Shown here one piece after another: positions 1,059 to 8,485 of a stretch of DNA of 36,226 nt. The stretch is from NCBI GenBank assembly GCA_021787335.1, contig JAJYMC010000036.1, positions 1 to 36,226 on the forward strand. Reading direction: 5' to 3'. This DNA comes from Bacillota bacterium. GTDB taxonomy: Bacteria; Bacillota; Sulfobacillia; JAJYWN01; JAJZPE01. The number at the start of each line of letters is the position of its first letter. Position 1 is the first letter of the stretch. Both the position numbers and the translations under genes were made by a program. The notes beneath the pieces were generated by a model. It was not told the origin of the DNA, made no database searches, and saw only the letters and a program-made list of their open reading frames with translations.

Positions 1059-1087
1059 CGTTCCGCGGCAGGGAGGGGGATTCCTTG

Positions 1088-4000
1088 ATGTTCAAGCGAG
1101 TCGGGAGGCCGAACTGGCCGGCGCTGGAAGCCGAGGTCCTCGACTTCTGGCGTTCGGCCGGGGTCTTTCGTCGGAGCCTGGACGGCCGCCGCGGCCGGCC
1201 GGCCTTCGTTTTCTTCGAGGGGCCGCCGACGGCCAACGGGCGGCCGCACGTCGGCCACGTCCTGCCCCGGTCGATGAAGGACCTCATCACCCGGTACAAA
1301 GCGATGGACGGGTTCTTCGTCGATCGCAAGGCCGGGTGGGACACCCACGGACTGCCGGTCGAACTGGAGGTCGAGAAACGGCTCGGCCTGTCGGGCAAGG
1401 CGGACATCGAGGCCTATGGGGTTGAGGCTTTCACCAAGAGATGCAAGGAGAGTGTCTTTCAGTATGAAGAGGAATGGGAACGCCTCACCGAGCGCATCGG
1501 ATACTGGGTCGACCTGGACGATGCCTACGTCACCTACCGAAACGGATACGTGGAGTCAGTCTGGTGGGCCCTGCGGCAGATTTGGGACCTGGGGCTCCTC
1601 TACCAAGGCCATAAGGTGGTGCCGTACTGTCCGCGCTGCGGGACGGCCCTCTCCGACCACGAGGTCGCCCAAGGGTACGCCGAAGTCGAAGACCCCTCGG
1701 TCTTCGTCCGCTTCCCCGTCGAAGGCCAAGTCGCCGGCCAACGTGACGTTGCCCTCCTGGTCTGGACGACGACCCCGTGGACCCTTCCATCAAACGTCGC
1801 CGTTGCCGTCCGGCCGGGTGAGGCTTATGTCGTTGTCGAGTCGGCGGGCCCTGGACCCGGCCAAAGCGAGAAGCTCGTCGTCGCCAAGGGGCGGCTCGAA
1901 GAAGTCTTCGGACCGGATGGCCCGGCCGGTGCGGAAAGGGCCGCACCGGACGCGACGCGCCCCTTCCGTGTCCTGGCGGAACTCGACGGAGAAGGGCTTC
2001 TAGGGCTGAGATACCGGCCGCCCTTCGACTTCTTCGCGGCCGAGGCCCCGGCCCCAGCCCCGGCCAGCGGGCGGGCCTTCGTCGTCGTCGGGGCCGACTT
2101 CGTCACCCTCGAGGACGGCACCGGCCTGGTCCACCTGGCCCCGGCCTTCGGCGAGGACGACCTGCGGGTCGGACAGGCCGAGGGACTGGCCGTGTTCCAA
2201 CCGGTCGACACCCGCGGCCGCTTCACCGCCGAGGTGACCCCGTGGGCGGGCCGCTTCGTCAAGGACGCCGACCCGGAGATCGTCGCCGACCTGGCGCGGC
2301 GGGGCCTGCTCTTTCGGGAAATGAAGTACCGCCATCCCTACCCGTTCTGCTGGCGCTGCGACACCCCGCTGCTGTACTACGCCCGCGGGGCCTGGTTCAT
2401 CCGGATGACCGCCGTCCGCGACCGGCTCCTGGCGGAGAACGCCGCCGTCGACTGGCACCCCGGACACGTCGGCGACGGGCGCTTTGGCGATTGGCTGGAG
2501 AACGTGGTTGACTGGAACCTCAGCCGCGAGCGTTACTGGGGCACGCCGTTGCCGGTCTGGGTCTGCCCGGACTGCGGGCACAAGCATTGCGTGGGGGGCT
2601 TCGAGGAACTGCGGCGGATGTCCGTCGCGCCGGTGCCCGACGGGGAGGCCTTCGACCCGCACCGGCCGTATATCGACGAGGTCCGGCTGCGCTGCCCCAA
2701 GTGCGGCGGGGCGATGCGCCGCGTCCCCGAGGTCATCGACTGCTGGTTCGACGCCGGGTCGATGCCCTTCGCCCAGTGGCACTACCCGTTCGAGAACCAG
2801 GCGACCTTCGACGAGCACTTCCCGGCCGACTACATTTGCGAAGCCGTGGATCAGACGCGGGGCTGGTTTTACACCCTCTTGGCCATCTCGACCCTCCTCT
2901 TCAAACAGGCCCCGTACCGCCACGTCCTTGTCACCGGGCACGGGCTCGACGAGACCGGTCAGGCCATGTCCAAGCACAAGGGAAACGTCCTCGACCCGTG
3001 GGTGGTCCTCGACCGCTACGGGGCCGACGCCCTGCGCTGGTTCCTCTACGTCACCAGCCCGCCCTGGGTCTCCAAGCGCATCACCCTGGAGGGCATTGCC
3101 GAGGCCCAGCGGACGACCCTGGACACGCTTTGGAACGTCCCCAGCTTCTTCACCCTCTATGCCGGCATCGATCGCTGGCGCCCGGCCGCTGGCGCTCAGC
3201 CGGGCGGTCGGCCAAGCGGCCCATCGGGGGCCGACGCGCCGCTCGATCGCTGGATCCTATCGCGCCTGACGGGGACCACGGAGGAGGTCCGGACCGCCCT
3301 CGACGCCTATGACGTGACGACGGCCGCTCGGGCCCTGACCGTCTTCGTCGACGACCTCTCCAACTGGTACGTGCGCCGCTCCCGACGCCGCTTCTGGAAG
3401 GCCGCGGCCGACCAGGACAAGGACCAGGCCTACGCCACGCTCCACCATGTCCTCCGGTCGACGGCCAAGCTGATGGCCCCGTTCACGCCCTTCCTGGCCG
3501 AGCAGGTCTACCGCGACCTGACAGGGACGGGCGGAGAGGGGCCGGAGGGGGCGGAGGTCGCCGGCCGAGCCGAACCAGACAGCGTTCACCTCTGCGACTA
3601 CCCGCGACCGGACCCAAGGCTCCGCGACACGGCCCTCGAGGCCGGAATGGAGGCCGCGCGGCGCCTGGTCGCCATGGGCCGGGCGGCCCGCGGCCGGGCC
3701 GGCATCAAGACCCGGCAGCCGTTGCCCGAACTGGTCGCCGGCGGCCTGTCCGCCGAGCAGCGACAGTCGGTGGCGGCCTTGGCCGACCTCCTGGCCGACG
3801 AGCTGAACGTCAAGGAGTGCCGCTTGGACGGGGCCGGTCCGGAGGCCGAGCCGGGCCCCGGTTGGGTCGCCGAGAGCGCCGGTGGGCTGTGGGTGACCCT
3901 GCGGACCGAGGTCTCCGCCGACTTGAGGCTCGAAGGGCTGGCCCGCGAACTGGTCAACCGGATTCAGCGGGCTCGCCGGGAAGCCGGGCTGGAAGTGGCC

Positions 4001-4210
4001 GATTCCGTCGAGCTGACCTACCTCGCGGCGGGCGACCTGGCCCGCGCGGCCGCCCGGCACGCCGACTACATCCGCCTGGAGACCCTGGCCGAGCGCTTTG
4101 AACCCGGCGCCGCGGACGTCGCACCGGGCGAGGGACACGTCCGGCAGGAATGGGCCGTCGAAGGTGAAAGCTTCGTGCTCTGGCTTCGCCGAGGCACGGA
4201 GCCCCGTTGA
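1088..4210 (+). CDS. ileS: Isoleucyl-tRNA synthetase, IleS2 type
   Basis: Class I aminoacyl-tRNA synthetase that charges tRNA-Ile in the cytoplasm; 1040 residues. ATG 1088 is chosen over the overlapping TTG 1085 because GGGAGGGGG (1071-1079) lies at a normal distance. The HIGH signature is HVGH (residues 54-57) in EGPPTANGRPHVGH. The KMSKS signature reads AMSKH (residues 626-630). CP1 editing-domain sequence (LLVWTTTPWTLPSNVAV) and CxxC pairs (CPRCG, CPDCG, CPKCG) are present, and the C-terminal part matches the anticodon-binding region. The EGPP-type HIGH context and the length fit the eukaryote-like IleS2 class rather than the IleS1 of E. coli. Control by the Ile T-box confirms the amino acid. 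The first Lys of KMSKS is replaced by Ala. An intrinsic terminator follows 7 bp after the stop, so it is probably monocistronic. Confidence 0.96.
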   Translation: MFKRVGRPNWPALEAEVLDFWRSAGVFRRSLDGRRGRPAFVFFEGPPTANGRPHVGHVLPRSMKDLITRYKAMDGFFVDRKAGWDTHGLPVELEVEKRLGLSGKADIEAYGVEAFTKRCKESVFQYEEEWERLTERIGYWVDLDDAYVTYRNGYVESVWWALRQIWDLGLLYQGHKVVPYCPRCGTALSDHEVAQGYAEVEDPSVFVRFPVEGQVAGQRDVALLVWTTTPWTLPSNVAVAVRPGEAYVVVESAGPGPGQSEKLVVAKGRLEEVFGPDGPAGAERAAPDATRPFRVLAELDGEGLLGLRYRPPFDFFAAEAPAPAPASGRAFVVVGADFVTLEDGTGLVHLAPAFGEDDLRVGQAEGLAVFQPVDTRGRFTAEVTPWAGRFVKDADPEIVADLARRGLLFREMKYRHPYPFCWRCDTPLLYYARGAWFIRMTAVRDRLLAENAAVDWHPGHVGDGRFGDWLENVVDWNLSRERYWGTPLPVWVCPDCGHKHCVGGFEELRRMSVAPVPDGEAFDPHRPYIDEVRLRCPKCGGAMRRVPEVIDCWFDAGSMPFAQWHYPFENQATFDEHFPADYICEAVDQTRGWFYTLLAISTLLFKQAPYRHVLVTGHGLDETGQAMSKHKGNVLDPWVVLDRYGADALRWFLYVTSPPWVSKRITLEGIAEAQRTTLDTLWNVPSFFTLYAGIDRWRPAAGAQPGGRPSGPSGADAPLDRWILSRLTGTTEEVRTALDAYDVTTAARALTVFVDDLSNWYVRRSRRRFWKAAADQDKDQAYATLHHVLRSTAKLMAPFTPFLAEQVYRDLTGTGGEGPEGAEVAGRAEPDSVHLCDYPRPDPRLRDTALEAGMEAARRLVAMGRAARGRAGIKTRQPLPELVAGGLSAEQRQSVAALADLLADELNVKECRLDGAGPEAEPGPGWVAESAGGLWVTLRTEVSADLRLEGLARELVNRIQRARREAGLEVADSVELTYLAAGDLARAAARHADYIRLETLAERFEPGAADVAPGEGHVRQEWAVEGESFVLWLRRGTEPR

Positions 4211-4217
4211 CCTTCAG

Positions 4218-4253
4218 CCCCCCGATCCGATGTGGACCGGGGGGTTTCTTTTT
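4218..4253 (+). terminator. Intrinsic terminator of ileS (first copy in the tandem duplication)
   Basis: CCCCCCGATCC (4218-4228) pairs with GGACCGGGGGG (4234-4244) with one mismatch, loop GATGT, followed by TTTCTTTTT. A close copy lies at 5279-5315. Confidence 0.85.
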
Positions 4254-4406
4254 GCCTCGGTCACCATTTTCGCCCAGCCTTGCCAGACCTCCGCACCATT
4301 AACTGGGGTGAGTCATACCCTGGAACCAGGACTGGGAATCGCGCTCAGTCCGGGCTCAACGCTAGAAGAAGTGGTCCCAACAGGAAAGGAGGTGCGAAGT
4401 AAGCCA

Positions 4407-5204
4407 ATGTCAGAAGAGAAGGAACTGGTCAATGCTAGCGGGCAGCCTGATGCGGAGGCGCTCCATGGGGGGTGGCCGCCGCACCCCACCCACTGGCCGC
4501 CGCCCCCGCCCCCCCCACCCTGGGAGATCGTCTGCGTCGACGTGAAGAAGGTCTTCGATTCCTGCTCCAACGTGGACTGCGAAGAGTTCTGCGTCCAGTT
4601 CTACCCCACCGTGGCCGGTGTCACCATCACCCCGGCGCCGCCGGCGGGGGGGCCCACCCCGCCCTTCACCCTCGTCAGCTGCACGGCGGGGACGGCCGAT
4701 GTCGGCCCGATCACGGAGTCCGCGGTCCCGGGAGAACCGCTCCTGCAGCGGATCACCGCCACGATTTGTGGGTCGGCGACCGTCGTCTTCACCGACTCCG
4801 CGACGCCGCCGGTCACGTACACCGTCACCATCTCGAATCTCACGTACCAGCATATCTGCTTCGATAAAGACGTCCTCCTATACATGCCCAACCCGTCGAT
4901 GATGTTCGGGAAGATCGAAGTGGTGACCTTCGAGTGTCTGACCGCCAGGTTCCAGGCCGTCGACACGGTCTTCTCCGTCTGCGTGACCATCGGCCTACGG
5001 GCGATCGTCAAGAGCGAGGGGCGCGTGCAATTGCGAATCCCCAGCTTCGGCTACTGCCCCGTCCCGCCGACCTGCCGCGAACTCGGCACCCTCTGCGAGG
5101 GGTTCGAGGCCGCCCCGTTCCCGACCGTGTACCCGCCGCAGCTCGAAGGCACGCCGCCTCCGACCTGGCCCCCGCCCCGGCGCCGCGACGGTCACCCCTG
5201 TTGA
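4407..5204 (+). CDS. Cysteine-rich protein with polyproline run, tandem paralogue 1 (possible spore-surface protein)
   Basis: 265 residues. ATG 4407 is chosen with SD AAAGGAGGTG (4385-4394); an in-frame GTG at 4392 overlaps the SD. I see a charged N-terminus (MSEEKEL), a His/Trp/Pro stretch with eight prolines, and the block WEIVCVDVKKVFDSCSN. A Thr/Val/Ser-rich beta-like middle follows, then a very conserved C-terminal half with CVTIGLRAIVKSEGRV, IPSFGYCPVPPTC and CRELGTLCEGF. About 13 cysteines are scattered, with no transmembrane segment or signal peptide. The KVFDSC start and the GRVQL..PSFGYC end remind me of Cys-rich, disulphide-linked spore-coat or appendage proteins of Bacillota, but I cannot name a family. 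Compared with copy 2 it has an extended Pro/Arg C-terminal tail ending in HPC. Function is unknown. Confidence 0.8.
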   Translation: MSEEKELVNASGQPDAEALHGGWPPHPTHWPPPPPPPPWEIVCVDVKKVFDSCSNVDCEEFCVQFYPTVAGVTITPAPPAGGPTPPFTLVSCTAGTADVGPITESAVPGEPLLQRITATICGSATVVFTDSATPPVTYTVTISNLTYQHICFDKDVLLYMPNPSMMFGKIEVVTFECLTARFQAVDTVFSVCVTIGLRAIVKSEGRVQLRIPSFGYCPVPPTCRELGTLCEGFEAAPFPTVYPPQLEGTPPPTWPPPRRRDGHPC

Positions 5205-5278
5205 AGGACCGTTCCGCCGGGCAGCCGATCGGAGAGGCTCACGGACCACGAAAGCAAGGACACCAGCCCATTGATCAA

Positions 5279-5315
5279 GCCCCCAGGTCCGGTGCGGACC
5301 GGGGGGCTTCTTTTT
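5279..5315 (+). terminator. Intrinsic terminator after paralogue 1 (second copy of the ileS terminator)
   Basis: GCCCCCAGGTCC (5279-5290) pairs with GGACCGGGGGGC (5296-5307) with one mismatch, loop GGTGC, followed by TTCTTTTT. Sequence and setting match the ileS terminator at 4218-4253, so it marks the start of duplication unit 2. Confidence 0.85.
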
Positions 5316-5466
5316 GACTCGGTCACCATTTTCGCCCAGTCTTGCCAGACCACTGCACCATTAACTGGGGTAAGTCATATCCTGGAACCAGGACTGGGAG
5401 CCACACTGTCCGGGCTTACCGCTAGAAAAAGTGGACCCAACAGGAAAGGAGGTGCGAAGTAAGCCA

Positions 5467-6204
5467 ATGTCAGAAGAGAAGGAACTGATCAATGACGGTG
5501 GGCAGGCTGATGTGGGAGCCCAAGGGGGATGCCACCCGACCCACTGGCCGCCGCCCCCGCCCCCACCGCCCTGGGAGATCGTCTGCGTCGATGTGAAGAA
5601 GGTCTTCGATTCCTGCTCCAACGTCGAGTGCGAGGAGTTCTGCGTCTTGTTCACCGCACTCGGTGTCGTCATCACCCCGGCGGCGCCGCCGCCCACCCCG
5701 CCTTTCACCTTCGTCAGCTGCACGGCGGGACCGGCCGTGGTCGGCCCGATTTCGGAGTCTCCGGTCCCGGGCGAACCGCTCCTGCAGCGGATCACCGCCA
5801 CGATCTGTGGGCCAGCGAGCGTCGTCTTCACCGACTCCTTGGGGGTCACGTACACCATCACCATCCCGAATCTCACGTACCAGTATATCTGCTTCGATAA
5901 AGACGTCCTCCTGTACATGCCCAACCCGTCGATGATGTTCGGGAAGATCGAAGTGGTGACCTTCGAGTGTCTGGGCGCCAGGTTCACGACCACCGACACT
6001 GTCCCGACCGTCTGCGTGACCATCGGCCTGCGGGCGATCGTCAAGAGCGAGGGGCGCGTGCAACTGCGAATCCCCAGCTTCGGCTACTGCCCCGTCCCGC
6101 CGACCTGCCGCGAACTCGGTACCCTTTGCGAGGGGTTCGAGGCCGCCCCGTTCCCGACCGTGTACCCGCCACAGCTCGATGACTCGCCGCCTCCGACCCG
6201 GTAG
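5467..6204 (+). CDS. Cysteine-rich protein with polyproline run, tandem paralogue 2
   Basis: 245 residues, a close paralogue of the preceding gene with the same SD and start (ATG 5467) and the same order: MSEEKEL start, HPTHW followed by eight prolines, WEIVCVDVKKVFDSCSN, beta-like middle, and an almost identical C-terminal half. It lacks several residues of copy 1 in the Gly/Pro-rich and Thr-rich middle. It stops earlier, ending PPPTR, because of a TAG at 6202. The core cysteines are kept, which argues for selection on both copies. No signal peptide or membrane segment is visible. Spore-surface or other extracellular structural role is a guess from composition; function is unknown. Confidence 0.8.
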   Translation: MSEEKELINDGGQADVGAQGGCHPTHWPPPPPPPPWEIVCVDVKKVFDSCSNVECEEFCVLFTALGVVITPAAPPPTPPFTFVSCTAGPAVVGPISESPVPGEPLLQRITATICGPASVVFTDSLGVTYTITIPNLTYQYICFDKDVLLYMPNPSMMFGKIEVVTFECLGARFTTTDTVPTVCVTIGLRAIVKSEGRVQLRIPSFGYCPVPPTCRELGTLCEGFEAAPFPTVYPPQLDDSPPPTR

Positions 6205-6280
6205 CCGCACCGGCGCCGAGACGGCCCGTGTTAAGGGACCGTTCCGCCGGGCAGCCGATCGGAGAGGCTCACGGACCACG

Positions 6281-6306
6281 AAAGCAAGGGCACAGGCCCT
6301 TGCTTT
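6281..6306. terminator. Terminator between convergent paralogue 2 and the methyltransferase
   Basis: AAAGCAAGGG (6281-6290) pairs perfectly with CCCTTGCTTT (6297-6306) around a 6-nt loop. The A- and T-rich arm ends could serve both strands; the genes on either side converge on it. Confidence 0.75.
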
Positions 6307-6315
6307 TGTGGTTTC

Positions 6316-6849
6316 TTATACCGGCATGGATATTGGTCTCACCGGAAGGCGCCTGGCGATCAGGGCGACCACTCGGCCGGTGATCATCAGGCGAGTGATC
6401 ACGCCGGCCCTGGCCAGGTGGGCCTGGAGCCATCCGGCCTTCAGGAGGAGCACCTCCGAACGCCAACTGGCGAGGAACATGACCACCCCGCCCGGCCGGA
6501 CGACCCGGATCATCTCCGCCGCGACCAGCCCGGGATCGCTGAAGTGACCCAGGGCGTTGAACTCGGCCACCGCGTCGAAGAGCTCGTCGGGGAACTCGAG
6601 GCGGTGGGCGTCCATCATAAGGAGGGAAACGGCCCGCCCGCCGACCTTCGGCCGGGCGGTGATCAGGCTGCGCGGATCCCAATCGACGGCCACGACACGG
6701 CGGAACCGCCGGGCGGCCTGCCTGGTCAGACGGCCTTCGCCGACACCGACTTCAAGGAAGGAGGCGGTCCGGTCGATCTCCTCGAGCAGGGTGCCGAGGG
6801 AGCGGTCGAGGGGCGACCGGTTATCCTGGGCCTGAATGACGTCCTGCAT
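6316..6849 (-). CDS. Class I SAM-dependent methyltransferase
   Basis: 177 residues with a Rossmann-type methyltransferase fold: motif I FLEVGVGEGRLT (about residues 31-42), the acidic end of beta-2 in VVAVDWD, motif II/III MMDAHRLEF and motif IV FDAVAEFNALGHF. Post-I RVVRPGGVVMF follows. This is the Methyltransf_11-like pattern for small-molecule or lipid methylation; the substrate cannot be read. The C-terminal part is short and ends in a basic, hydrophobic segment (VVALIARRLPVRPISMPV). It is transcribed away from the RlmD gene from a shared intergenic region and ends beside a hairpin shared with the convergent Cys-rich gene. Confidence 0.85.
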   Translation of the reverse strand: MQDVIQAQDNRSPLDRSLGTLLEEIDRTASFLEVGVGEGRLTRQAARRFRRVVAVDWDPRSLITARPKVGGRAVSLLMMDAHRLEFPDELFDAVAEFNALGHFSDPGLVAAEMIRVVRPGGVVMFLASWRSEVLLLKAGWLQAHLARAGVITRLMITGRVVALIARRLPVRPISMPV

Positions 6850-7057
6850 GCTAGACCACCCGTTTTGCTGGTCGCCCTCCGACGGTCTGGCCGACTCTTG
6901 GCGACTTGCGGTTACGTTAATTTACAGCAATCGACAGGAAACGGGTACAGGTTTCGCCCCCGAACGGAAGATTCCTCCAGGGGCCATAGCGATATCCTTC
7001 GGGGGAGGAAAAGCTCCCCGCTTGGGGAATCCTTCCTATCGAGGGAGGATCTCCACC

Positions 7058-8485
7058 ATGACCGACCACGACAACGCCGCGACCGCCAAGAGCGTCCCGC
7101 TCAGCCGGGGAAAGACTTTCCGCATCCCCATCACCGGCCTCTCCCACAGCGGCGAGGGCGTCGGGCGCTTCCGCAACTTCACCGTCTTCGTGCCCTACGC
7201 CGTCCCCGGTGACACCATCGACGTCCGCATCGAGGAGGTCCACAAGAACTATGCCCGTGGGGAACTGGCCTTTGTCCGCTCGCCCTCGCCGGACCGGGTC
7301 CAGCCGCGCTGCGGGCTCTTCTACGAGTGCGGCGGGTGCCAGCTCCAGCAGGTCGACTACCAGGCTCAGCTGGCCTTGAAGACAAAGGTCGTCGAGGACG
7401 CCGTGACCCGCCTCGGCCGGCTTCAGGGGGTCGAGGTCAAGCCCTGCCTGGGCGCCAGCGACCCCTGGTACTACCGCAACAAGGTGCAGTTCCCGGTTGG
7501 CCTGTCCGAGGGGCGCCTGGTCGTCGGCTGCTACACCAGGGGCACCCACGACATCGTCCCGGCCGACGAGTGCTACATCCAGCACCAGACGAACAACCGG
7601 ATCATGCGCGAGGCGCGCATCCTGGCCGAGAAGTACAACGTCCGGCCCTACGACGAGGAGACCGGTGGCGGGACGCTGCGGCACATCCTCAGCCGGGTGG
7701 CCGCCAAGACCGGTCAGGCCATGGTCGTCTTCGTCACCGCCACGCGGGACTTCGGGCCCGGGCGCAAGCTGGCCGAAGAACTCATGCTGCGGCTGCCCCA
7801 GGTGGTCGGGGTCTTCCAGAACATCAACCAGGCCCGGACCAACGTCATCATGGGCCCCGAGACCAGGCTCCTGGCCGGGGTCGAGAGCATCGAGGACACC
7901 ATCCACGTCGGCGGGCCATACGACGACCTGCGTTTCAAGATCTCGCCGCAGTCATTCTACCAGACCAACCCGGATCAGACGGCCCTCCTCTACCGGCAGG
8001 TCCTCAAGTACGCCGACCTGACCTACCGCGAGACGGTCATCGACGTCTACTGCGGCATCGGGAGCATCACGTTGTTCCTGGCCCAGCGGGCCAAGAAAGC
8101 CTATGGGGTCGAGGCGGTGTCCGAGGCGGTCAACGACGCCAAGAAGAACGCCCGGCTCAACCGGATCGAGAACGTCGAGTTCCTGGTCGGCGAGGCCGAG
8201 AAGGTGCTGCCGCAGATGCAGCAGGGCGGGGTGGCCCCCGACCTCATCGTCGTCGACCCGCCGCGCAAGGGCTGTGACCCCCGCGTCCTGCAGGCCATGG
8301 CCGAGATGCGGCCGGCGCGGATCATCTATGTCTCGTGCAATCCGGCCACCCTGGCCCGCGACCTGGCCGGCCTGCGGGACCTGGGCTACCGGACCCTGGA
8401 GGTTCAGCCGGTCGACATGTTCCCGATGACCGGCCACATCGAGGCGGTGGCCAAGCTGGAGCCGGCCCAGGCGGCCGGGTCCTAG
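7058..8485 (+). CDS. rlmD: 23S rRNA (uracil-5-)-methyltransferase, RlmD/RlmCD (TrmA) family
   Basis: 475 residues. ATG 7058 follows SD GAGGGAGGA (7041-7049). The order is an N-terminal TRAM domain (about residues 15-75), a 4Fe-4S site (C85, C91, C94 in CGLFYECGGC, with a fourth Cys probably in ADECYIQH), a central RNA-binding part and a SAM-dependent domain with VIDVYCGIGSITLFLA. The end holds the DPPRKG motif and the nucleophile Cys in YVSCNPATLARDL. The family uses SAM to make 5-methyluridine in 23S rRNA. Bacillota often have one enzyme acting at both U747 and U1939, so RlmCD is equally possible. The 208-bp leader has inverted repeats, TTCCTCC (6972-6978) with GGAGGAA (7004-7010) and a small CCCC/GGGG stem at 7016-7027; their role is unknown. 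Confidence 0.94.
   Translation: MTDHDNAATAKSVPLSRGKTFRIPITGLSHSGEGVGRFRNFTVFVPYAVPGDTIDVRIEEVHKNYARGELAFVRSPSPDRVQPRCGLFYECGGCQLQQVDYQAQLALKTKVVEDAVTRLGRLQGVEVKPCLGASDPWYYRNKVQFPVGLSEGRLVVGCYTRGTHDIVPADECYIQHQTNNRIMREARILAEKYNVRPYDEETGGGTLRHILSRVAAKTGQAMVVFVTATRDFGPGRKLAEELMLRLPQVVGVFQNINQARTNVIMGPETRLLAGVESIEDTIHVGGPYDDLRFKISPQSFYQTNPDQTALLYRQVLKYADLTYRETVIDVYCGIGSITLFLAQRAKKAYGVEAVSEAVNDAKKNARLNRIENVEFLVGEAEKVLPQMQQGGVAPDLIVVDPPRKGCDPRVLQAMAEMRPARIIYVSCNPATLARDLAGLRDLGYRTLEVQPVDMFPMTGHIEAVAKLEPAQAAGS

Follow-up and report, generated by a model that had tools for sequence, protein, structure and literature searches.

A tandem pair of cysteine-rich proteins from a Sulfobacillia genome, very probably of the outer spore layers and related by profile to the BMQ_0737 coat family

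The proteins of the outer spore layers are reported to be far less conserved than other parts of the sporulation machinery (PMC7333573), and for this reason little is known of these layers in anaerobic Bacillota. Among the described systems, the closest to the proteins considered here is BMQ_0737 of Bacillus megaterium QM B1551, which has been placed in the outer coat by the fitted radius of its GFP fusion. The fusion is also reported to bind anti-GFP antisera strongly, which implies an outermost protein (PMC4656864), and a role in the outermost layer is stated both there and in the title of Manetsberger, Hall and Christie (2014). In addition, CsxA and ExsY/CotY are described as Cys-rich spore proteins that self-assemble into disulphide-linked arrays (PMC7333573). 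Another kind of spore-surface structure is the F-ENA appendage, whose fibre subunits have the DUF4183 fold (PF13799), and the F-Anchor of Bacillus is reported to end in DUF4183 as well (PMC11952670).

The window, that is, the whole stretch of 36,226 nucleotides that was analysed (contig JAJYMC010000036.1), comes from a Sulfobacillia assembly of 65 contigs, 96.9% complete and 2.9% contaminated. Gene 1 (4407..5204, plus strand) encodes a Cys-rich spore-coat-type protein of 265 aa, and gene 2 (5467..6204, plus strand) is its tandem paralogue of 245 aa; both are open reading frames with an ATG start, and both have the ribosome-binding site AAAGGAGGTG, at 4385..4394 (+) and 5445..5454 (+), respectively. 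The pair reflects a tandem duplication of about 1.05 kb in which the whole unit was copied, upstream region and trailer included. Unit 1 (upstream region, gene 1 and trailer) occupies 4216..5277 (+) and unit 2 occupies 5278..6299 (+), as seen from direct-repeat blocks within 4216-5269 and 5278-6299, which are spaced by 1030-1062 nt and are 83-93% identical. Since the duplication takes in the upstream regions, the mutual likeness of the two genes is weak evidence alone. Terminator-like hairpins with T-runs lie 3' of gene 1 (5288..5303, +) and of gene 2 (6284..6309, +), both weak, two being found against a mean of 1.5 in shuffles.

A third paralogue is present on a different contig of the same genome, with 78% identity over residues 25-251. 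The gene pair itself is flanked by ileS (1085-4207) and by a methyltransferase gene (6316-6849, minus strand), next to which is a TRAM/RumA-type gene (6836-8482), with no sporulation genes around it in the window. In G001, a genome from the same genus, the only family match adjoins an ileS-like frame and a stretch resembling the methyltransferase region (L146, by eye), and in G002, a genome from the same taxonomic family, one of the copies lies near a gene resembling the TRAM/RumA-type gene of the window (L140, by eye). Based on these similar surroundings, the window pair seems to have arisen when an inherited gene was duplicated locally. At its start (15-581, +) the window also carries a piece of an IS605 OrfB / Cas12f1-like TNB domain.

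Each window protein has 13 cysteines, of which 12 align between the copies and the 13th differs, and the run of eight prolines as well as the conserved ends KVFDSCSN and IPSFGYCPVPPTC are found in both, just as the initial annotation had described them. By eye, no hydrophobic N-terminal stretch could be seen in either protein, which agrees with the lack of a signal peptide noted there. The two proteins are identical at 207 of 245 aligned residues (84%), and the length differences between them are whole codons. The dN/dS ratio is 0.53 for gene 1 versus gene 2, 0.35 for gene 2 versus the third paralogue and 0.62 for gene 1 versus the third paralogue, while the remaining 7 of the 10 pairwise comparisons of five genes range from 0.28 to 0.49. 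From these values both copies look like real genes under purifying selection; in the initial annotation, selection had been suggested from in-frame indels with retained cysteines. The poly-proline run is not a feature of the family: the longest run is only 2, 2 and 3 residues in the third paralogue and the two relatives counted, and besides the window copies a few members (e.g. L026, L068) have the long run, which may be a spacer. The alignments referred to here are A1 (26 members), A2 (the window clade, eight sequences), A4 (43 members) and A5 (39 members). Across A4, the residues C40, C50, C208, C214, C221, K45, D48, G206 and several prolines are invariant or nearly so. These are mainly cysteines, glycine and prolines and form no obvious catalytic set.

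No model in Pfam or NCBIfam matches either window protein at E up to 10 (note that the HMMER filters lose most hits above about 0.1), and PDB sequence searches returned nothing credible. The family had been called unrecognised, which holds for both proteins in these two libraries but not for the superfamily, part of which is already named after BMQ_0737. Weak Pfam matches of other members (LtfC, CFAP65 Ig-like and others; best E 7.5e-4, one or two members each) were taken as chance. Viral contigs contained no relatives, and one member, L070, had no match in plasmids. With a single-sequence search, family members were found in 21 of 61 near genomes, and with profile A1 (E<=0.001) in at least 108 of the 299 genomes sampled across the phylum, which is a lower bound since no more than nine candidates were scored per genome. 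A scan of 84,980 species, which detects only proteins with either of two peptide patterns, yielded 99 stretches, and 44 of these were confirmed as relatives. The titles of all 44 name Bacillota, Firmicutes, Clostridia or subordinate groups but say nothing of sporulation, and they include Moorella, Sulfobacillus, Alkaliphilus, Natronincola, Pelotomaculum, Ammonifex and many MAGs. Literature searches brought up no data on the expression of the family or on its presence in spore proteomes, and no mention of it was seen in a Moorella spore proteome paper (PMC8745062), supplements aside. In cultured organisms such as Moorella, Sulfobacillus and Alkaliphilus, its members are candidates for structural studies and spore proteomics.

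The link to the described coat protein comes from the model NF052457 (BMQ_0737 family morphogenetic spore coat protein), which matches 31 of the 43 A4 members at E<=1, the best at 2.1e-20. When 20 proteins were scored singly, only L089 passed the 71-bit cut-off (73.7), followed below it by L084 (67.5), L080 (66.7), L079 (55.5), L070 (47.0), L103 (32.0) and L038 (20.7); the window pair, two other members of the window clade (L003 and L061) and the members L062 and L012, likewise scored singly, had no match. At the level of genomes, 20 of 99 had NF052457 matches, none over the cut-off, and the source genome had none. NF052457 does not reach the window proteins, which are also longer than the model-matching L070 (245 and 265 aa versus 212) and have the long proline run. 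However, in a profile comparison by hhalign, the window clade A2 aligned with a set of relatives including L089 and L084, in which there were no window-clade rows, over 200 columns with a probability of 99.0 and an E-value of 6.5e-18, and with a second set (L062, L063, L072 and one member each from two Alkaliphilus loci) with an E-value of 1.9e-19. The conserved cysteines at both ends are common to the window clade and the relatives that match NF052457. By profile comparison through these intermediates, the window proteins are homologous to the BMQ_0737 family over their full length, the comparison being made with sets that include model-matching relatives. The window proteins are thus a divergent, unlabelled branch of a superfamily of which BMQ_0737 is the named part.

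Both window genes are preceded by a sigma-K-like promoter. For gene 1 it consists of GCACC, 15 nt and TCATACCCTG (4293..4322, +), matching the published B. subtilis consensus except that the last base is G, not A, and for gene 2 of GCACC, 15 nt and TCATATCCTG (5355..5384, +), as a pattern match. The consensus is given as KCACM and GCATANNNTA (PMC3416734), with a spacing of 15 bp, plus or minus 1 (PMC517825), and in C. difficile the -35 element is reported to be AC for sigma-K and ATA for sigma-E (PMC3789822). Both genes have KCACM at -35 and CATANNNTR at -10 at the right spacing, with TG where the published consensus has TA. A simpler sigma-K-like pattern occurs three times in the window, twice at the gene pair. 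From 117 family ORFs, 82 were kept as non-redundant, those with less than 200 bp upstream or at least 90% identical to a kept one being dropped. The strict pattern AC-N16/17-CATANNNTR is found upstream of 49 of these 82 genes, against a mean of 0.98 and a maximum of 6 in 40 shuffles, and upstream of 23 of 343 other ORFs of the same loci, at least three of which themselves resemble spore proteins. Since the strict pattern was chosen after the window-clade promoters had been seen, the 73 genes outside that clade are the fairer test, and 41 of them have it. The full published -35 and -10 elements are present in only 6 of the 82 upstream regions with the TA ending and in 29 with TA or TG, while control patterns gave 0 for sigma-E, 1 for sigma-G/F and 0 for sigma-A.

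Therefore, we consider it very probable that the gene pair encodes structural proteins of an outer spore layer (coat or exosporium), made in the mother cell under sigma-K, disulphide-linked and homologous to the BMQ_0737 family. Late in sporulation, the mother cell would make the proteins from the sigma-K promoters, without a signal peptide. Each protein would fold as a single all-beta domain with long strands, its proline-rich ends being disordered. The nearly invariant cysteines of the first strand and of the region just past the last strand (EIVC, KVFDSC, GYC, PPTC, TLC) probably form disulphides, and these would lock self-assembling subunits into an insoluble layer on the outer surface of the spore. 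This mechanism is borrowed by analogy from the CsxA and ExsY lattices. CsxA is likened to the family by description, and the CotZ/ExsY model PF10612 had no match in Pfam scans of members or in any of 99 genomes of the phylum, the B. subtilis control being positive.

The beta-like character noted at first inspection agrees with the predicted structures. The model of gene 2, from 43 sequences, is all-beta with low-confidence ends (pLDDT 78.6, pTM 0.70), and that of L070, from 39 sequences, has six long strands (pLDDT 87.1, pTM 0.73). Fold searches with the two models gave no match at E<=0.001 in any library, and thus no confident match to an unrelated enzyme fold. The best Foldseek E-values in the PDB were 0.022 and 0.043, and the best in the viral library was 1.6e-3, for the L070 model only, with a TM of 0.16. 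The best VIA Z scores were 3.4 (5ds1_B, rmsd 4.4, 68 aligned) and 4.0 (9fmb_B, rmsd 4.8, 70 aligned; 8rha_C, rmsd 5.1, 71 aligned), values under the 8 below which the tool rates a match as possibly a mere common arrangement. The Ena-like jelly-roll proposed in the initial annotation is left unproven, as Ena is absent among the Foldseek and VIA matches listed for the two models, and the Pfam model Enas (PF13157) matches neither the window pair nor the 26 A1 members at E<=10, nor the 43 A4 members at E<=1; it had no match in 99 genomes, although the control genomes gave none either.

Then, could the proteins be subunits or anchors of spore appendages, fibres of Ena or F-ENA type, instead of parts of a closed coat layer? 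This reading is unlikely, but it is the strongest of the alternatives, and it draws mainly on fusion proteins. In genome G139, a protein of 465 aa (L155:2708-4102, minus strand) joins the family domain, with 47.1 bits to NF052457 at residues 20-139, to three DUF4183 domains C-terminal to it (E 1.7e-72, three stretches), DUF4183 being the F-ENA fold. The same contig has, at a distance of about 15 kb, a separate DUF4183 gene of 126 aa, and sigma-K-like sites are found upstream of both genes. L155 is a possible F-ENA anchor. Fusions of other kinds, as expected of a display module, place the family domain C-terminal to a YNCE/lactonase-type beta-propeller in two genomes (L157, and L158 by likeness to L157) and C-terminal to a right-handed beta-helix in five proteins (L159, L161, L162, L163 and L164). 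On the other hand, the members scanned had no DUF4183 or Enas match, and DUF4183 turned up in only 3 of 99 genomes, the source genome not among them, and had no match in the window proteins. The window proteins have a different domain from the F-ENA subunits and F-Anchor (PMC11952670), which are on the spore surface and all-beta like the family. The PDB Foldseek search, with nothing below E 0.02 and no Ena among the matches listed, neither establishes a new fold nor settles the case against Ena.

The fusions also show an unusual order of the first strand. The strand-1 motif KVYDxC precedes the rest of the domain in all 39 A5 members, and follows it, as in a circular permutation, clearly in L155 and L160 and weakly in L159 (E 0.076) and L161 (E 0.44). 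The normal order is kept in other fused proteins, clearly in L157 and L164 and weakly in L162 and L163. From the permuted order in L155 and L160 it seems that either end of the domain can contribute strand 1, and perhaps a neighbouring subunit too. We mention, as a long shot, a wider proposal, namely that the family is a phylum-wide, mostly unannotated spore-shell module with a movable strand 1, whose subunits could polymerise by lending a terminal strand to a neighbour and then be locked by disulphides, and which in some anaerobes may serve as the F-ENA spore anchor in place of the collagen-like F-Anchor of Bacillus. Two further proteins (L095:5854-7065 and L101:5959-7086, both plus strand) have the family domain followed by a long Thr run and a second domain; L095 has no Pfam match.

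That the window proteins act at the cell surface or after secretion, without any particular link to the spore, is very improbable. Cys- and Pro-rich beta proteins are common on surfaces, and the neighbourhood in the window is a housekeeping one. However, besides the N-terminus, in which no signal-peptide-like stretch could be seen by eye, and the sigma-K-like sites, the distribution of the family argues against this reading. SpoIVA is present in 257 of the 299 sampled genomes, in 107 of the 108 family-positive and 150 of the 191 family-negative ones (Fisher p 4.6e-8, a value that overstates independence because the genomes are related to each other). The sole family-positive genome lacking a SpoIVA match, G330, carries Spo0A, so that a sporulation marker (spoIVA or spo0A) is found in 108/108 carriers. 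Homologues in clear non-spore-formers, named beforehand as evidence against a spore role, were not encountered. The 150 SpoIVA-positive genomes with no detected member show that the family is not a universal coat part.

The neighbours of the family outside the window also point to the spore. A ykwD-type CAP-domain gene lies 49-2074 bp from the family gene in 27 of 44 loci. Of two YkwD-type members checked against TIGR02909 (spore_YkwD), one was over and one under the cut-off. In 9 of 10 hand-picked family-positive genomes, the source genome included, a family gene has a TIGR02909 match no more than about 3 kb away; the only match in the source genome is beside the third paralogue and divergent from it (135.6 versus the cut-off of 171 bits). 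The match exceeds the cut-off in only 4 of the 10 picked genomes, and two non-Bacillota controls had matches below it. The ykwD label is therefore looser than the adjacency, and general CAP-domain proteins may be among these neighbours. The family gene is convergent with spoIVA in G065 and G143, 3' of genes that were identified from their sequences, with no model, as der, plsY and gpsA, and in G078 it has a SipL-domain gene on one side and a ykwD-type gene on the other. A superficially similar strand pattern at first impression suggested by eye a divergent SPOCS/SipL scaffold domain (DUF3794, PF12673), and the neighbourhood shared with SpoIVA-SipL in some genomes would fit, but the idea is hardly tenable, as four family profiles compared by hhalign with 30 SipL-domain sequences gave only E 0.03-0.95 over 1-33 columns, no profile similarity that would relate the family to SipL repeats. 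The spore-surface structural family first suggested for the pair is thus well supported from several sides, namely the BMQ_0737 profile link, the sporulation markers, the sigma-K-like sites and the linkage to ykwD-type, spoIVA and SipL-domain genes. The family profile connects the B. megaterium coat family, ykwD-type genes, spoIVA loci and F-ENA appendages.

Some other proteins were noted at these loci. In Moorella sulfitireducens, a SafA/ExsA-type LysM gene (L091:3900-4850, +; 201 bits versus 67.85) lies near the family gene; for M. thermoacetica, the spore paper reports no SafA match (PMC8745062). Proteins of 446 and 532 aa (L143:5833-7173, + and L144:2534-4132, -) lie beside the family gene near spoIVA and are alike at the N-terminus by eye, the L144 protein having no Pfam match. 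In nine loci of Sulfobacillus or similar MAGs (L065, L067, L071, L076, L081, L083, L085, L092 and L096), a common protein of about 185-240 aa, with no NCBIfam match for the L067 copy, is encoded 3' of the family and ykwD-type genes, and several of the copies have their own sigma-K-like site.
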